A stretch of 17,399 nucleotides of DNA from Treponema sp. (GTDB lineage: Bacteria > Spirochaetota > Spirochaetia > Treponematales > Treponemataceae): the NCBI GenBank assembly GCA_012513125.1, contig JAAZCS010000147.1, positions 1 to 17,399 of the forward strand. Reading direction: 5' to 3'. How positions within the stretch are numbered: position 1 is the stretch's first letter; each line of letters starts with the position of its first letter. The notes under the pieces are model-generated. The model made no database searches and was not told the DNA's origin. It was given only the letters and a program-made list of their open reading frames with translations. Positions 789 to 15,942 of the stretch are shown here, piece by piece. A program made the position numbers and the translations under genes.

Positions 789-1375
789 TATCAGATTCAA
801 AAGAATTAACTTACATTACTGGCAGCAATGCAAATATGCTTAGCAGTGAAATTGAAACTACATTAGGTGGACGGTATCTAACAAAATTTATTTATCCCTA
901 CAATGTACGTGAATTTCTTTTGGCAAATGAAATGATTATAGATGAAAAATCTATGTTGCAAACAAAGACAATTGGAAAAATAAAGCGACTTTTTGACGAT
1001 TATTATACATTTGGAGGTTTTCCTGAAACTGTATTGTATAAAAACAAGCGAGAATATATATCAAGAGTTTACCAAAAAATTCTTTTAGGTGACATTGCAA
1101 CTAGAAATAATATTCACAATTCGGCAGGATTAAAAATTTTGATAAAGAAAATTGCCGAGACTGTAAAAGATACAATTTCTTATTCAAAACTTCATATTGC
1201 GTATTCAATAAGCAATATTTCAAATAATCGTGAAATAAAAAGTCTTGTAATATTAGCATCAGAAATGGACGAAGTTAAAAATTTTATAATAATTCCCAAA
1301 GAAGAAGAACAGATACTAGAGGCATCGGGTATCACTATAAAAGTAGTTCCTGCTTTGAAATGGCTGTTACAGTAA
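788..1375 (+). pseudogene. Remnant of AAA_14/DUF4143 ATPase (N-terminal and internal deletions)
   Basis: Reading back from the ATG at 836, the frame stays open to 788 and gives 'ELTYITGSNANMLSSEIETT'. This matches the segment after Walker B in the intact AAA_14 ATPase of this window ('DVYVTGSNSKMLSSDILTEF'). Everything before it, including Walker A and the acidic Walker B motif (about 120 residues), is missing, so ATP hydrolysis is not possible. Roughly 100 residues also appear lost between 'DTISYSKLH' and 'REIKSLVILASEM', removing much of the winged helix and the DUF4143 core. The tail 'GITIKVVPALKWLLQ' is a typical family C-terminus. Its own palindromic promoter region is kept just upstream. 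Translation from the ATG at 836 would give 179 residues, which I do not expect to be functional. Family assignment is confident; the exact deletion ends are inferred. Confidence 0.8.
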
Positions 1376-3300: not shown

Positions 3301-5043
3301 ATGTCCACCAACATTTCAAAACAAAAACGCGATGACTTGCTCGCTAAAATAGAACAGATAAAAACTTATATACAAAAATCCGAGTATGACCAGAACATAA
3401 CGACCTTACTTCAATATTTGAATGAGCTTACAAAAGAAGTAAACGGAAAAAAATATGGGCTTGTCTTTGAAGAACATCGTGAAAAAATTGATGAACAGTT
3501 GGAAAATAGCCTTCCTGTTTTTACAGAAGAAAAAGATTTATTCATCGACAACGGCGGACAAATGAATTTCCTTATCGAGGGAGACAATCTTGCAAGCCTT
3601 AAACTGTTGGAAAAAACGCACAAAGGCAAGATAGATGTAATTTACATCGACCCGCCGTATAACACGGGAAACAAGGATTTTGTATATGATGATAGTTTTG
3701 TTGATGGAGAAGATAGTTTTAGACATAGTAAATGGTGTAGTTTTATAACAAAGCGACTTGAAATAGCTCAGAAATTACTAAAAGAAACAGGGATAATTTT
3801 TATTTCTATTGATGATAATGAATATGCACCGTTAAAAATAATTTGTGATGATATATTCGGTGAGACAAATAGAATTTCAACACACCATATTCAAGTTAGA
3901 TATGATAATAAAAGTCTAAATGAGAAAAAAGCTTTTCAAGAATGCCTTGAATATGTTCTTATTTATGCAAAAAAAGGTCAGTGTTTTATACCAAATCAAC
4001 CAACGGAAGATTACTCAATAGAACCATTTGTTTATGAGATAAAAGAGACTGGTGATAAAGAAGAAATAACGCTTGGAAAAAAGAAAGTAACAATTTTTAA
4101 GAAAGGTAATTATGAAATTACAAAACATGACAAGCCTTCCACTAGTTTTTTAAAGGGGACTTGGGCCTCTGGTAGTGTTGTTAAGGGTAACACATCAGGA
4201 AAATTTTTTGAAACCTATCTAAAACCAAGAAAAGAAATAGATGGATTGGAAACATTATACAAAGTCGAAGGAATTGGAGAAGATGGATTAGGTTTCAGAT
4301 ATTTTACTGGTCCTTTGAAAGCAACTGCAACTCAAGGAATTTTTTATTCAGGTATTCCTTTATCTAGATTAGAAGAACTGAAAACAGGTAGCTCTAAAAA
4401 ATATAAAACAATTTCAAATTATTATGATTTTTCAGCAGATTTTGGAAATATACGACAAGAAGGTGGAGTTCCATTTAATAGCGGTAAAAAACCAATCAAA
4501 ATGATTAGACAATTTCTGAACTATCATAAAAGCAAAAATATAACTGTACTTGATTTTTTTGCCGGCTCAGGTTCAACCGGTCATGCTGTATTATCTCTTA
4601 ACAATGAAGACAATGGAAAGAGGAAATTCATACTTTGTACGAATAATGAGAATAATATTTGTAGAGACATTACATACGCCCGAATGGTAAATATTCTTAC
4701 AAAAAACAATCTTTCCGGTTCCTTAAAATACTTCCGTGTGGATTTTATCCCAATCACTGAAAAAGAATATTACGAATACGCCGACAAACTTCTTCTGAAT
4801 ATCCGCGAACTTGTCGAATTGGAAAACGCTCTAAACTTCACAGGTAATAAAAAGATTGCAATCGTTCTGACAGACACGGAACTGGAAGAATTCTGTTCAT
4901 CAATTAATGAAAAATCTGAATGTCATACAGCATATATCGGTCATAATGTTCTTCTTACAAAAGAACAAAAATCACTGTTCAAAGTGAACAATATAAAAAT
5001 CAAAATTATTCCTGAATATTATTATCCTGAACTTAATGGCTAA
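3301..5043 (+). CDS. mod: Type III restriction-modification system methyltransferase subunit (Mod)
   Basis: The product of 580 residues is an N6-adenine methyltransferase. The catalytic motif IV DPPY is at residues 117-120 ('[11 protein letters not shown]') and the AdoMet motif I at 418-427 ('[10 protein letters not shown]'), the beta-class order seen in Mod subunits. Residues 1-80 are charged and helical. The target recognition region lies between about residues 180 and 400. A C-terminal extension ('[20 protein letters not shown]' onward, about 95 residues) probably contacts the restriction subunit. AAGGG ends about 9 nt before the ATG. The res gene follows after 14 nt, so the pair is one operon, divergent from a repressor gene. 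The ends of the gene are visibly less AT-rich than its centre (about 3670-4680), suggesting an exchanged recognition domain. No tandem repeat typical of phase-variable mod genes is present. Confidence 0.93.
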
Positions 5044-5057
5044 ATGGAGAAGAGAAC

Positions 5058-7250
5058 ATGGAACTAAAGCATTTTCAACTTAACACCATAAAAGAACTTT
5101 TACTTTCAATGGAAGAACAGAATCGGGATATCATCTTAAAAAGTCCTACTGGCAGCGGTAAGACAATTATCTTAACAACTTTTATGAGCGAATATGTAAA
5201 AGGCCATGATAAAACTATTTTCGTTTGGCTTACTCCTGGAAAAGCGAATCTTGAGGAACAAAGCAAACAGAAAATGGATTTGTATATTCATAATTCAAGC
5301 ACAAAACTTTTAAGTGATGTTATGACTTCCGGGTTTGAGGAAAATGACTGCTGTTTTATCAACTGGGAAAAACTTACAAAAAAAGGCAACAATGCGCTGA
5401 AAGACAGTGAGCGTACTAATTTTTATGAATGGATTTCAAAAGCAATTCATGACGGGCTGCAATTCAAAATCATAATTGATGAAAGCCATCAAAACTTTAC
5501 AGAAAAGGCTGATTCAATCATTCAGCTATTCAAGACAGATAAAATAATCCGATGTTCTGCAACTCCTCTTATCGATAAAAATGCAAAACTGATTGAAGTA
5601 AACGAAACTGATGTTATTGCGGAAGGTCTTATTAAAAAGATGCTCGTAATAAACGAAAACTTTCCGCAGACAATTGAAGTTGAAAATGAAACGGAATATC
5701 TTTTGGAATGTGGATTAAAAAAGCAGATGGCGTTAAGCGGTGAGTTTGCAAAACAAAACATAAATGTAAATCCACTTATTATTGTTCAGCTTCCGAATAA
5801 TTCTGATTCACTTTTAGAAAGTGTTGAAAACTATTTTGAAAAGAATTCAATTTCCGTAGATAACGGACTCCTTTCTGTCTGGCTTTCAAAACAGCATGAT
5901 AATCTTGAAAATATTGAGCAAAATAATTCAAAGCAAATTGCGGTAATCATTAAGCAGGCTGTTGCCACGGGTTGGGACTGCCCTAGAGCGCATATTCTTG
6001 TAAAACTCCGCGAAGGTATGGATGAAACTTTTGAAATTCAGACGGTCGGAAGAATACGAAGAATGCCGGAGGCCCATCATTATGAGAACGAGCTTTTGGA
6101 CTGCTGCTATTTGTACACGTTCGATCCTAAATTTACTTTAGGCGTACAAAACGCTCTTGGTAAAAATGCATTGCAAGCAAAAACACTGTTTCTTAAAAAT
6201 GAACACAAAAACATCTCGCTTGTAAAAGAACAGCGTACTCAGGTTTTAGACACTCAAGATGATGCGTTGGCTCTAAAATCAATCACTGATTACTTAATTA
6301 AAACATTTAATCTTGGTCAAAATAGTGAGGAAAACAAAAAACGACTTGCAGTTCATGGTTTTGTGTTTGATTCAAAAATAGTTCGCAATACTTTTTCCGG
6401 AAATGCAATGTTTTTGTCCGAGGCGACACCAGAACACTTAAATGTCATAAATGTAAAAGAAAAGATGAATACTCATACTCACGGACGGGAGTTTCATAAC
6501 AGAGTTGGTCGTATAGGTCTGGAAATCGGTTTGGAGTATTCAACTTCTGTTACAATATTGGGAAAACTTTTTGCCAATGAAAACAAGTTTTTATACAAGA
6601 ACAAACTTCTGGAATTGAAAATAAAAGAGTGGTATTCGTTTGTTATAAACAATTTTGATGAACTGCGTCACGTATTTCGTTTTGCAATGTCATCACAAAC
6701 TAAACAGGCGTCTTTGGAGTTAGACACAATTTCTGAAAAAATGTTTTCAATTCCTCATACCACAATGTTTACTTATGATTCAAACTCAAAAGTTCAGACT
6801 GAGTATAAAAAAAATGTTTATCAAGGATATTTGAGTAGCGCAGAATTCCGTTCATCACCCGAAAAAAAATTTGAAAAATTCTGTGAGAATTCAACTTCCA
6901 TAGATTGGTGGTACAAAAACGGCGACAAAGGAGAAGAATACTTTTCCATTGTATATACGGATAATTCCAACCGACAGAAACTTTTCTATCCGGACTACAT
7001 TCTAAGTGTGAATGATGAAATTTGGATTTGTGAAACGAAAGGTGGTTTTGACAGAAACGGAAACAGCGAAGACATTGATATTTTCTCTCCAAAGAAATAT
7101 GAAGTTCTAAAAAAATATCTTACCAAGCATAATCTAAAAGGAGGCTTTATTCGTGAAGACAAGCAAAGCCAGGAGTTATGCATCTGCACAGAAAAGTATG
7201 ACGAAGATATAAAATCTTCAAACTGGAAATTGCTTACAGAAGTGTTTTAA
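5058..7250 (+). CDS. res: Type III restriction enzyme helicase-nuclease subunit (Res)
   Basis: The product of 730 residues is an SF2 helicase followed by a nuclease. Walker A is 'SPTGSGKT' (29-36), motif II is DESH (141-144), motif III is SATP (167-170), and 'ATGWDCPRAHILVKLREG' plus 'QTVGRIRRMPE' are motifs V and VI. The C-terminus has a PD-(D/E)xK site: P645-D646 in 'FYPDYIL' and E659-T-K661 in 'WICETKGG'. Partnered with Mod it would translocate or slide on DNA and cut when unmethylated target sites meet. It is shorter than EcoP1/EcoP15-type Res (about 970 residues), so it belongs to a compact branch, but all core motifs are intact. It starts 14 nt after mod, with GGAGAAGAG before the ATG. 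No convincing terminator follows; the weak ACCGAT/ATCGGT pair downstream is followed by A rather than T on this strand. Confidence 0.92.
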   Translation: MELKHFQLNTIKELLLSMEEQNRDIILKSPTGSGKTIILTTFMSEYVKGHDKTIFVWLTPGKANLEEQSKQKMDLYIHNSSTKLLSDVMTSGFEENDCCFINWEKLTKKGNNALKDSERTNFYEWISKAIHDGLQFKIIIDESHQNFTEKADSIIQLFKTDKIIRCSATPLIDKNAKLIEVNETDVIAEGLIKKMLVINENFPQTIEVENETEYLLECGLKKQMALSGEFAKQNINVNPLIIVQLPNNSDSLLESVENYFEKNSISVDNGLLSVWLSKQHDNLENIEQNNSKQIAVIIKQAVATGWDCPRAHILVKLREGMDETFEIQTVGRIRRMPEAHHYENELLDCCYLYTFDPKFTLGVQNALGKNALQAKTLFLKNEHKNISLVKEQRTQVLDTQDDALALKSITDYLIKTFNLGQNSEENKKRLAVHGFVFDSKIVRNTFSGNAMFLSEATPEHLNVINVKEKMNTHTHGREFHNRVGRIGLEIGLEYSTSVTILGKLFANENKFLYKNKLLELKIKEWYSFVINNFDELRHVFRFAMSSQTKQASLELDTISEKMFSIPHTTMFTYDSNSKVQTEYKKNVYQGYLSSAEFRSSPEKKFEKFCENSTSIDWWYKNGDKGEEYFSIVYTDNSNRQKLFYPDYILSVNDEIWICETKGGFDRNGNSEDIDIFSPKKYEVLKKYLTKHNLKGGFIREDKQSQELCICTEKYDEDIKSSNWKLLTEVF

Positions 7251-8460: not shown

Positions 8461-8468
8461 GAGTGTTT

Positions 8469-9761
8469 GTGAAAGAAATTAAACGGGAACAATATCTACA
8501 ACAATTGCTGTCTTATCAATGGGATGGTCAGATAAAAGTAATAACTGGCATTCGAAGATGTGGCAAGTCTTATTTGTTAGGAAAAATATACAAAAATCAC
8601 CTTTTGGAAAATGGAGTGAAGGAAAGTAATATTATTTCCATTCAATTGGATTTAGTAAGAGATATCCGTTTTAGAAATCCATTGGAATTATCTTCTTATA
8701 TTTCGAAAAAAATCGAAAATAAGGATGAGAAATTCTATTTATTTGTTGATGAAATACAAATGTCAGATGAAGTGCCTAATCCATATTCACCAGATGGAAA
8801 AAAAATCACATTCTATGATGTGTTGAATGAATTAAGGGAAGCAGAGAACCTTGATGTTTACGTAACTGGCAGCAATTCCAAAATGCTTTCCAGCGACATT
8901 CTTACGGAATTTCGTGGTAGAAGTGATGAGATACGTGTTCATCCATTGTCATTTAGCGAATATTATTCTGCGGTTGAGGGCGATAAAGAGGATGCGTTTG
9001 CTCAATATGCGTTTTATGGTGGAATGCCATTTGTCCTAACTCGGCCCGACGATTCATCAAAAATGAAATATCTTGAATCACTTTTTAGTGAGACTTATCT
9101 GAAAGATATTATTGAACGAAATAAACTAATGAAAGAAGATGCCTTGGAAAATATTCTTGATTTGCTTTCTTCATCGATTGGCTCATTAACAAATCCTAAA
9201 AAAATAGCAGATACAATCATTTCCAAGAAGAATATGAAAATATCAGTGAATACTGTAACTTCGTATATTAATTTTTTAGAAGACGCATTCCTATTTTCAA
9301 AATCAAAAAGATATGACGTAAGGGGAAAATCATACTTTGATTATCCGTATAAATATTACTGCGAAGATATAGGGCTTAGAAATGCACGAATAGGATTTAG
9401 GCAGCAGGAAATGACTCATATAATGGAAAACATAATTTATAACGAATTGATTATAAGGGGATTTTCAGTAGATGTAGGTGTAGTGTATTCCAGAGAATAT
9501 AATGAAAATAACAATTCGGTGCGAGTACCAAGGGAAATAGATTTTGTGGTAAACTCAGGCGGTAAGAAAACATATATACAATCAGCATTTGCTCTTGGAA
9601 CTGATGAAAAAGCTGAACAGGAGCTTCGCCCATTTTCATTAACCGGAGACAGTTTTCCAAAAATCATCGTAAGAAAAGATATTCAAAAAAGATGGTATGA
9701 TGATAATGGTATATTGAATATCGGGCTCATTGAGTTCTTATTGGATTCTACAGTAGTATAG
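8469..9761 (+). CDS. AAA_14/DUF4143 ATPase (intact)
   Basis: Using the GTG at 8469, which has GGAG 5 nt upstream, the product is 430 residues and begins 'MKEIKREQYLQQLLSY', the usual start of this family. An in-frame GTG two codons earlier lacks that spacing. Walker A is GIRRCGKS (27-34), Walker B is 'LFVDEIQ' (D94, E95), and the sensor segment 'YVTGSNSKMLSS' is at 131-142. A winged helix follows in the middle ('NPKKIADTIISKKNMKISVN'), then the DUF4143 region with a nuclease-like 'VPREIDFVV' strand pair near the C-terminus; the lysine expected after it is replaced by 'YIQSAF', so nuclease activity is doubtful. Biological role is unknown; related genes occur in many copies in anaerobe genomes. 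The remnant at 0.8-1.4 kb belongs to the same family but a different branch. Confidence 0.9.
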   Translation: MKEIKREQYLQQLLSYQWDGQIKVITGIRRCGKSYLLGKIYKNHLLENGVKESNIISIQLDLVRDIRFRNPLELSSYISKKIENKDEKFYLFVDEIQMSDEVPNPYSPDGKKITFYDVLNELREAENLDVYVTGSNSKMLSSDILTEFRGRSDEIRVHPLSFSEYYSAVEGDKEDAFAQYAFYGGMPFVLTRPDDSSKMKYLESLFSETYLKDIIERNKLMKEDALENILDLLSSSIGSLTNPKKIADTIISKKNMKISVNTVTSYINFLEDAFLFSKSKRYDVRGKSYFDYPYKYYCEDIGLRNARIGFRQQEMTHIMENIIYNELIIRGFSVDVGVVYSREYNENNNSVRVPREIDFVVNSGGKKTYIQSAFALGTDEKAEQELRPFSLTGDSFPKIIVRKDIQKRWYDDNGILNIGLIEFLLDSTVV

Positions 9762-12362: not shown

Positions 12363-15308
12363 CTATTCAGTATCAATTTTAAATATTTTATGAATTTTTG
12401 CCTCATCATTACGAATAAACTTAAAATTGTTTGAGCGTAACCAAACACCGCACGTAATCATATCAAGATTTACACTTGGTTCTATTTCGTCACCGACTTT
12501 TATTGGAAGTTCTTCTGTAAAATAAGTTTTCATACGTCTTATTGGCTCAATTCCGTATATTTTCTTTATTCTTCCACTCCAAATGAAAGGTAAGTTTGCA
12601 AGTCCCAAATATTCATACAAAATAGGTTTGTCAGGGATATTTGATTTTCCAGTTTTAAATACATTAAGCGTTTCGAGTGGTGAATCTATTTTTGTGCCAT
12701 ATTGGGTGTAAGTCTCATTTGCACTTCCCATCAATCTTGCGCCGATTTCTATTGCAATAGGACCTCGTGAAGAAAGTTTGATTTCCGCATGTCCGGGACC
12801 GATTTTTATTCCGACAGCTTTATATAGTTTAACTGCATATTCTTTTAAAGCTTTGAATTTTGGATCATTAATATCCATTAACAAGTCGTTGTAATATAGG
12901 TTATTGGCGAATTCATTGTTTATCTTTTCATATTTCCATATTGAAGTTACGATAATCTTTTTGTCATCTCCAAAGATATTTACCGCATATTCATCGCCAT
13001 CGATATATTCTTCAACAACAGCTGAGTCTGTACTATGTTTATAATCATCAAGGGTAGAAATTACAATATTAAATTTTTCAATAAAATCTTCTCTATTCTT
13101 AATCTTGAAAACATTGTGGCTTGCGGCTCCTTCTGGCGGTTTAATAAATAGAGGATATGTAAGATTTTTATCTACAAATTCCAAAGCTTCGTTTAAATCT
13201 TTAAAAATACCGCCTTTTGCGTGGTCAAGACCTGCATCAGCTATGGCTTTTTTCATGTCATATTTGTTTCGTCGTTGTTTGCTTGTTGCAGGATCATTGC
13301 CACGTAGTCCAAAATCATGTGCAAGATTTTCTGCACTTTCTACAGACAATTCAGAACCGGCAATTACAGCAACAATATTTTTTTCAGTTGAACGTAATTC
13401 TTTTGCAACTTCCTGCCAAGTATCTTTTACAATAACTCTGTCGCAAAGTCCATCTTGTTCGCATTCGCCGACTATCAACATATCTTTCATTAATGCGTAT
13501 TGTTCTGAAGGGATAGCAACCGCCAATATAACTCTGTTTCCAGCCTCATGTGCACATTGAACAAGGCGTTTTCCCGAAAAACATTCAGGTGCCATAATTA
13601 CGACACATTCATCTTTTGCATTTTTTTCAACAGAATTCATTTTTACAAGACGACGGTGCATTAAACATTGCTCATCAACTGTAAATCCGCTTTTTAGTTC
13701 AGGATATAATAAATCACTTTTGCCGTTGAATCGCAAAATCAAATCACGACTGTTATCATCATTTTGAAGAATAGAAATTGAAAGCGTTATATTTGTTTGT
13801 TTATTATTTTTAATCGTGTTTTCCAGAGGAATAAAAACTGCATCGTTGACAAGATAATGATATCTTTTTTCAATTAATGGCAGAATCTCAGATTTCCATT
13901 GTTCAAGATTTTCACTAGTAAGTTTTCCACCAGTAAGTATTTCTGTGTTTTCTGGGTAACGTCTGATAAAACCTTTATACTGTTTTTTAATAACCAAAAG
14001 ATAAAACAAAGTTAAGAATTCTGAAATTACAATTGAAATCCAAGGAGCATTAGTAGGAATAAATTGATTTAGAATTAGTGCTATTGGAACTTGGAATCCG
14101 GCAGTTTTTAAAATTGTTGCAAATAAAGCAGTTTTTCCATCATTTGCAGAAACACAAATGTTAATTATAACAAGATTTAAACAAGACAGAAAGAAAGATA
14201 TTGCCGTAATGCGTAATCCTGTTGGTGCAACTTGTAAAACAGCAGGATCTGTAATTTGAAAGAAATTTATAAACCAGTTTGGATAAATAATTAACGAGAG
14301 TGAAAATGGAACTGTAAGGATGAATGCATAAAATAAAGAAATACGTTTTACTGAATAAACATTGTGCCTGTTTTTTTCACCATATGCACAAGATACAAAA
14401 GGAATTACGCTTTCTGAAACACATTCAACTAAAATGGCTGCCACAAGTAAAAGGTTTGCCATGATAGTAGAATTAGTAAGACCAGCAATTCCTGAATTGT
14501 TTTTCATAAGTATGTTTGTTACAAATAGTTGAACAAAAAATAGCAAATATTTTGTTGCTTCAGGAATACCACCCTTGATAATTCGTTTTGTGCTGTAATC
14601 TTTTGCTACATCTTTATTCTGTAAAGGTATAAAACGGCACATTCTGTCTTTTTTAATAAAGTGAAAGGAATATGTTAGGCAGCCGGCAACTTGACCAAGT
14701 GCTGTTCCTAATGCTGCAGCTGCGATTCCTTTTTTCAATATTACAACAAATACTAAATCAATTATAATATTAACAATATTTGAAACTATCATTCCAACCA
14801 TTGCAAGGCTTGGATTATTATCTACAGCTAACAAATAAGTGCCAGCAAAACAGAAAACGTAGAAAGGGGCACCCAAAAGCAAAATACGGTGATATGTGAG
14901 TGCGTATTCCATATTTTCTGGCATTCCACCTAAGAAAAGAGTTATTGGTTTTACAAAAATTAATCCAATAACCATTATTACAAGCCCACTAAGTAGCATT
15001 AAATTCATTGCTTTTACAAATACATAAGGTGATTTAAATTTTTGCCCCGAACCAGCGAGTTCAGACATTAAAATAGCAGCACCAATGCCCAGAAGAACTG
15101 CAGGAATATTAAAAATATAAAATATTGGAGAAATAATGCCAATTGCAGAAAGGGCTGCATCTCCATTTGCCCATGAAATGCACAGTGAATCTATAAAAGG
15201 TGCAATTTGACAAAATAGTAGTGAGATTAAGCTTGGTAATAAATAGCGGGAAAAACTACTAAAAATAAGTTTTTCTTCTACGTCAGAATTGATATGTAAA
15301 TGTTTCAT
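12363..15308 (-). CDS. MATE exporter - ATP-grasp ligase fusion protein
   Basis: The product has 981 residues from the ATG at 15308, chosen because GGAG (15315-15318 on this strand) lies 6 nt upstream; longer in-frame starts, including TTG at 15359, lack a ribosome site. Residues about 10-450 are a MATE/MatE flippase with about 12 membrane segments ('IAPFIDSLCISWANGDAALS', 'ALGTALGQVAGCL'). About 460-580 is a soluble middle part that may be a degenerate GHKL/anti-sigma-like fold ('YLVNDAVFIPLENTIKNN', 'DLILRFNGK'). About 590-960 is an ATP-grasp ligase: K723 in 'LFIKPPEGAASHNV', E766-E767 in 'VVEEYIDGDEYAVN', and 'AIEIGARLMG' with E854. The last region resembles amino-acid ligases of the BacD type. 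Synthesis and export of a dipeptide-like product is inferred. It follows a Nudix gene by 79 bp and is likely co-transcribed with it. Confidence 0.88.
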   Translation of the reverse strand: MKHLHINSDVEEKLIFSSFSRYLLPSLISLLFCQIAPFIDSLCISWANGDAALSAIGIISPIFYIFNIPAVLLGIGAAILMSELAGSGQKFKSPYVFVKAMNLMLLSGLVIMVIGLIFVKPITLFLGGMPENMEYALTYHRILLLGAPFYVFCFAGTYLLAVDNNPSLAMVGMIVSNIVNIIIDLVFVVILKKGIAAAALGTALGQVAGCLTYSFHFIKKDRMCRFIPLQNKDVAKDYSTKRIIKGGIPEATKYLLFFVQLFVTNILMKNNSGIAGLTNSTIMANLLLVAAILVECVSESVIPFVSCAYGEKNRHNVYSVKRISLFYAFILTVPFSLSLIIYPNWFINFFQITDPAVLQVAPTGLRITAISFFLSCLNLVIINICVSANDGKTALFATILKTAGFQVPIALILNQFIPTNAPWISIVISEFLTLFYLLVIKKQYKGFIRRYPENTEILTGGKLTSENLEQWKSEILPLIEKRYHYLVNDAVFIPLENTIKNNKQTNITLSISILQNDDNSRDLILRFNGKSDLLYPELKSGFTVDEQCLMHRRLVKMNSVEKNAKDECVVIMAPECFSGKRLVQCAHEAGNRVILAVAIPSEQYALMKDMLIVGECEQDGLCDRVIVKDTWQEVAKELRSTEKNIVAVIAGSELSVESAENLAHDFGLRGNDPATSKQRRNKYDMKKAIADAGLDHAKGGIFKDLNEALEFVDKNLTYPLFIKPPEGAASHNVFKIKNREDFIEKFNIVISTLDDYKHSTDSAVVEEYIDGDEYAVNIFGDDKKIIVTSIWKYEKINNEFANNLYYNDLLMDINDPKFKALKEYAVKLYKAVGIKIGPGHAEIKLSSRGPIAIEIGARLMGSANETYTQYGTKIDSPLETLNVFKTGKSNIPDKPILYEYLGLANLPFIWSGRIKKIYGIEPIRRMKTYFTEELPIKVGDEIEPSVNLDMITCGVWLRSNNFKFIRNDEAKIHKIFKIDTE

Positions 15309-15387
15309 TTTGTACTCCATTGAATTTAGCATTTTAAAGTTAAAATCCGTACAACACAATAAAAATTTTTAATAAATGTAAATTAGC

Positions 15388-15903
15388 TTATTTATTGCTA
15401 TCGGAAATGATATACGACAGAACAAGTGTTTCTCTTTTTATCCACGGGATGTTATCAAAGTTCGAAATGCTTTTGTTTTTTGCAACTGCCTCTTTTGGGG
15501 TAATCCAGATTGTTTTATATTGATAATCTTTTTCGTATTGGTCTAAATTTTGGTCACCTTGAAGTCCTGTTGTTTCACATTGATAATAAAAATTTTCCAT
15601 TTCCATAATATCATCAGGATTACCTTTTCTTCGTTCAAGAACATAGCAAAATTCTTTTTCGGAATTTTTTTTGACTGAAAAACCGGTTTCTTCTTTTACT
15701 TCTCGGCAAAGAGTGTCAATGTTTGTTTCATTTTGTTCTTGTCCACCGCCTGGAAATTTGTAATCGCCATATTTTCCGTGAATCATCAGAAGTTCAATCT
15801 GACCAGAAGTGTTTTTACGGCTTATAACCCCACGAACAGCTGTTCGATGAAAAATCGAGCCATCTTTTTTGTAATTTTGTAAATCAATTGTCATTTCTTT
15901 CAT
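15388..15903 (-). CDS. Nudix hydrolase
   Basis: The product has 171 residues from the ATG at 15903. The Nudix box is complete, G-x5-E-x7-R-E-V-x-E-E-x-G-F: it begins in 'GGGQEQNETNIDTLCRE' and ends 'VKEETGF', with all metal-binding glutamates present. Nudix enzymes cleave nucleoside diphosphates linked to another group; the substrate is not evident. An in-frame TTG at 15942 would add 13 residues but lies within the promoter, and an ATG at 15894 with AAAGAA before it is an alternative start. Its predicted promoter puts the mRNA start only a few bases before the ATG. It leads the MATE-ATP-grasp gene, so it may help make or hydrolyse an activated intermediate or by-product of that pathway (inference). 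Confidence 0.88.
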   Translation of the reverse strand: MKEMTIDLQNYKKDGSIFHRTAVRGVISRKNTSGQIELLMIHGKYGDYKFPGGGQEQNETNIDTLCREVKEETGFSVKKNSEKEFCYVLERRKGNPDDIMEMENFYYQCETTGLQGDQNLDQYEKDYQYKTIWITPKEAVAKNKSISNFDNIPWIKRETLVLSYIISDSNK

Positions 15904-15913
15904 AAATAAACTA

Positions 15914-15942
15914 ATTTTATTGTGTTGATAAAAAAAATCCAA
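15914..15942 (-). promoter_or_regulatory. Promoter of the Nudix / MATE-ATP-grasp operon
   Basis: On the minus strand, TTGGAT (15942-15937), a 17-bp spacer and TAAAAT (15919-15914) form a promoter. It overlaps the T tract of the terminator of the preceding gene. Transcription would start near 15907, only about 4 nt ahead of the ATG at 15903. Confidence 0.5.

Follow-up and report, generated by a model that had tools for sequence, protein, structure and literature searches.

A MATE transporter fused to an ATP-grasp ligase: a rare, conserved protein that plausibly makes and exports a small product

A minus-strand gene on a Treponema sp. contig (JAAZCS010000147.1) encodes a MATE transporter, a middle domain and an ATP-grasp ligase in a single chain (Table 1; the whole stretch of DNA analyzed, 17,399 nucleotides long, is referred to as the window). 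Does one molecule both make a small product and export it, or does the fusion serve some other purpose?

Table 1. Coordinates of the fusion gene, its parts and other features of the window.
Feature	Position	Strand	Remark
MATE / middle domain / ATP-grasp fusion gene	12363..15308	-	981 aa, counted from the ATG at 15308, + stop
MATE transporter, residues 1-440	13989..15308	-	Pfam MatE; PfMATE-type residues aligned
Middle domain, residues 441-563	13620..13988	-	conserved among fused proteins; without accepted Pfam match
ATP-grasp ligase, L-amino acid ligase type, residues 564-981	12366..13619	-	
K723 codon (ATP-binding lysine)	13140..13142	-	invariant in 22/22 aligned sequences
E842 codon	12783..12785	-	invariant in 22/22 aligned sequences
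E854 codon (metal-binding glutamate)	12747..12749	-	invariant in 22/22 aligned sequences
GGAG, possible ribosome-binding site, 6 nt before ATG	15315..15318	-	read from sequence
NUDIX gene	15388..15942	-	
N6_N4_Mtase DNA methylase gene, then ResIII/DEAD protein	3301..7250	+	read as type III restriction-modification pair
AAA_14/DUF4143 ATPase gene	8463..9761	+	
ORF	836..1375	+	by eye resembles part of an AAA_14/DUF4143-type protein; without Pfam match

Domain organization of the fused protein

The initial annotation had described an unbroken frame running from a 12-helix MATE transporter into an ATP-grasp ligase. Pfam searches of the full protein and the existence of other full-length fused proteins confirmed this frame, and the opposite (+) strand of the same interval contains stops throughout. 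The mechanical ORF extends further upstream, to a TTG at 15359; we assigned the start to the ATG because of the GGAG that precedes it and the start of the homologue P0001.

The N-terminal part matched MatE with an E-value of 1.7e-30 (106.3 bits, cut-off 24.9) in two stretches that cover both halves of the transporter. It has a twelve-helix fold, in line with the initial description, and its D40, N180, D184 and T202 each line up with a residue of the same type in the cation site of PfMATE (D41, N180, D184 and T202). All seven fused proteins keep these four residues. Transporters of the DinF/PfMATE group (3vvn, 6fhz, 5c6n) share both the fold and the aligned cation-site residues; however, those proteins stop after twelve helices, while the fusion continues with the middle domain and the ATP-grasp enzyme. 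All NCBIfam MATE models scored below their cut-offs against the N-terminal part, the nearest being the drug pumps FepA (120 bits) and MepA (84 bits).

The C-terminal part contains an ATP-grasp_4 domain at residues 717-861 (E 2.4e-19, 69.9 bits, cut-off 27), and its top structural matches were the L-amino acid ligases BL00235, YwfE/BacD and RizA. A profile of the ligase family matched the L-amino acid ligase 30vh over positions 3-412 of 419 with an E-value of 1.2e-72. By fold and by sequence family, the domain thus belongs with the L-amino acid ligases of solved structure. With BL00235, RizA, YwfE/BacD and 30vh the fusion shares the fold over residues ~562-981 as well as the active-site lysines, glutamates and arginine. 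By their chain lengths these four enzymes are soluble, single-domain proteins, whereas the ligase domain here is joined to a transporter. K682, K723, E773, H840, E842, E854 and R858 are invariant in all 22 aligned sequences; the ATP-binding lysine (K723) and metal-binding glutamate (E854) previously recognized in the sequence are thus in place, and are conserved in the homologues. A literature search on the active-site arginine returned nothing. The residue equivalent to Trp332 of YwfE is Ser862, and the pocket therefore differs from that of BacD.

More specific family models did not reach their thresholds. The LAL_C2 domain gave no row at E 1 for the window protein in Pfam, and 16.2-19.3 bits against a cut-off of 29.4 for four other fused proteins. 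The best C-terminal match in NCBIfam, PRK07206 (NF005543), scored 203 bits against a curated cut-off of 302, and the dapdiamide A synthase DdaF model scored 109.7 bits against 840.

Between the two lies the least conserved part of the fusion. The middle domain is 28-46% identical to that of five other fused proteins, the near-identical P0001 being left out. It is without an accepted Pfam family, and a search at E <=10 gave A2M_recep alone (E 0.017, 16.2 bits against a cut-off of 21.7). Its predicted structure consists of strands and two helices, a pattern that might also suit a decayed GHKL ATPase. Folded by itself the domain reached a pLDDT of 54.5, and with this weak stand-alone model Foldseek returned no match under E 0.6.

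A rare fused family in two phyla

A protein search identified five further full-length fused proteins, P0001-P0005, with 98, 60, 52, 53 and 42% identity over 99-100% of the query; the remaining three matches covered 31-38% of it. An alignment-based scan of genome contigs added a seventh member (L008, 55% identity) in a MAG named Anaerovibrio sp., a genus of the Selenomonadaceae. All seven proteins, 42-98% identical to the window protein, have the same domain order. A separate alignment search for further members returned only four proteins, all already known; this and the protein search each scored ~8000 candidates, and some members may have escaped them. Of two scans of genomes, one found no fused gene and the other found L008. 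At E 1e-60 the fusion turned up once among 274 genomes of the window's family, once among 392 drawn from its phylum, once among 189 of the family of the Anaerovibrio MAG and once among 398 drawn from the phylum of that MAG, in each case in the genome already known. The fusion is very rare, and its presence in two phyla was likely caused by transfer between them. A plasmid or phage origin was considered and rejected: none of the 273 plasmid and 20 phage records with a match reached 80% query coverage, and L008 adjoins four scanned genes of chromosomal type.

The host of the window protein is a 2.27 Mb MAG of 406 contigs with 80.6% completeness. Three matches to FlaA (PF04620), which we take to mark spirochaetes, were found in this genome and none in 14 control genomes. 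Relatives of the AraC gene that shares a contig with the fusion occur in 5 of 97 searched genomes of the genus other than its own; four are 59-63% identical, and the fifth is 71% identical across only part of its length. The GC content of the fusion gene equals that of the contig. These last two observations make correct binning of the contig likely.

The other window genes scanned encode NUDIX, DUF3990, AraC, GNAT, AAA/DUF4143 and Fic proteins, small regulators, and a DNA methylase accompanied by a res-like protein of type III. Among these scanned ORFs we recognized no biosynthetic genes beside the fusion and no genes for a non-standard amino acid. The NUDIX gene lies 79 bp upstream on the same strand and is possibly co-transcribed. 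It has a relative (E 1e-20) in 18 of 196 same-genus genomes, its own included, the best other being 44% identical. We rejected it as a partner of the system, as L008 has a GNAT gene upstream of the fusion instead. Endonuclease III, a GNAT acetyltransferase and DAHP synthase are encoded in the L008 neighbourhood, and none of the four genes scanned there is biosynthetic.

Exporters fused to or beside unfused relatives

A search with the ligase part returned 34 proteins. The closest stand-alone ligases are four proteins of 420 aa with 44-45% identity to it, and in a tree of the ligase part they form one group with the seven MATE fusions (100/100), within which the tree gives the fusions no clear branch of their own. 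Another of the 34, P0016 (707 aa), joins an EamA transporter to an ATP-grasp domain; its match, at 34% identity, spans 85% of the ligase part. Like the MATE fusion, it has an exporter domain followed by an ATP-grasp domain of the same wider family, but its transporter is from another family. Because P0016 falls outside the branch with the MATE fusions, a placement that carries a long-branch warning, it probably represents a separate fusion event.

More distant relatives of the ligase (~23-30% identity) are encoded on plasmids. From 40 of the 289 records with a relative, 15 loci were opened, chosen down the list for annotated records with few near-duplicates and not blind. An MFS or DMT gene directly adjoins the ATP-grasp gene in seven of them (L017, L018, L019, L020, L021, L023 and L028), with L018 and L023 carrying the same cassette. 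The other eight lack an exporter as immediate neighbour of the ATP-grasp gene: L024 has one at a distance of one gene, and for the remaining seven no exporter was seen in the stretch shown. As a control we took three 49-kb stretches from records of this kind; their 124 annotated features include one MFS gene, giving 2 of 124 genes such a neighbour. The difference has a Fisher p of 1.2e-6, or 4.6e-5 when two control MMPL genes are counted and 8.8e-6 when one paired cassette is dropped; these values are rough, coming from a small hand-picked sample and an incomplete plasmid gene table. No ATP-grasp gene adjoins the MATE gene of a Streptomyces plasmid (H12).

Three of the opened plasmid stretches, from Gloeothece (L016, 1153-5302), Pantoea dispersa (L017, 1-4056) and Methylobacterium (L022, 2-4059), are cassettes in which an ATP-grasp ligase occurs together with a Rieske protein and an iron-containing redox enzyme. 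The L017 cassette has an additional MFS gene that overlaps the ligase gene.

A proposed function and its alternatives

Ligases of this type are known to work with exporters. According to PMC3684760, BacD couples alanine to anticapsin and BacE exports the product, and the same scheme is proposed for HilD (PF13535) and the MFS protein HilE of Pantoea. Phosphonopeptides are described as products of two ATP-grasp ligases in a cluster that also has transporters (PMC11867202), and passages of PMC8939145 and PMC2922099 report exporters and transporters in ATP-grasp gene clusters, but no MATE fusion. The fusion likewise pairs an ATP-grasp ligase with a presumably dedicated exporter, encoding both together as in a BacD/BacE-type system. 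BacD/BacE and HilD/HilE, however, are two genes each with adjoining biosynthetic genes, whereas the fusion is one chain without such genes, and its exporter is a MATE protein rather than an MFS protein as in the Hil system. Searches of the open-access literature found no paper on a MATE-ATP-grasp fusion, in agreement with the earlier remark that no characterized protein of this architecture was known.

We consider it probable that the protein is a one-chain equivalent of BacD/BacE, a working enzyme of the L-amino acid ligase type joined to an ion-coupled MATE that exports its product. The ATP-grasp part would sit on the cytoplasmic end of the exporter and use ATP to convert a carboxylate, most likely that of an amino acid, to an acyl phosphate. 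Joining of the latter to an amine would give a dipeptide-like amide, which the MATE would then export, driven by an ion gradient. The initial annotation had proposed such a make-and-export protein; domain scans, the predicted structure, the seven fusions, P0016 and the neighbourhoods of unfused relatives bear out the ligase-plus-exporter architecture, while enzymatic activity, amino-acid substrates, and export and hand-over of a product are what we infer. As no biosynthesis genes adjoin the fusion, the ligase more likely acts on ordinary metabolites of the cell or on an amino-acid-like compound that enters it. A stronger version, in which the amide is handed from the ligase to its own MATE through the middle domain so that a toxic compound is never free in the cytoplasm, is tentative and rather doubtful; if true, this would be the first MATE shown with a built-in biosynthetic enzyme.

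The absence of recognized biosynthetic genes from the window leaves detoxification as the main rival. Here the ligase would tag a toxic amino-acid-like compound, incoming or home-made, with an amino acid and the MATE would expel the conjugate, making the fusion a self-protection or drug-handling device and not the producer of a signal or antibiotic. That the gene stands alone in the window, outside any recognized biosynthetic cluster, is consistent with this, as is the rare, patchy distribution, which suits an accessory function. Bacilysin itself is portrayed as dipeptide autodetoxification in PMC3684760. The nearest MATE families are drug pumps, although below cut-off, but these names are mere family labels, and sequence cannot tell tagging from production. 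We regard detoxification as unlikely. Two independent activities on one chain, for example a MATE and a membrane-tethered ATP-grasp enzyme with another metabolic role, would fit the weak conservation of the middle domain; however, the fusion has been retained in seven proteins from two phyla and relatives of the ligase also have exporters adjoining or fused, making this quite improbable. Finally, the draft state of the host MAG could point to two adjacent genes joined by an assembly or frame artefact, but six other full-length fused homologues, one of which comes from a different phylum and has flanking genes of its own, rule out such an artefact or a chance read-through for practical purposes.

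The fusion is real, conserved and rare, and the one-chain form of a known ligase-exporter partnership is new. Such pairs had been known as two genes; here ligase and exporter form a single chain, present in two phyla, and one molecule could plausibly produce a small compound and also export it. To our knowledge, it is not established what most MATE pumps really carry; an enzyme covalently attached to a pump hints at the cargo of that pump, which makes the substrate question testable.
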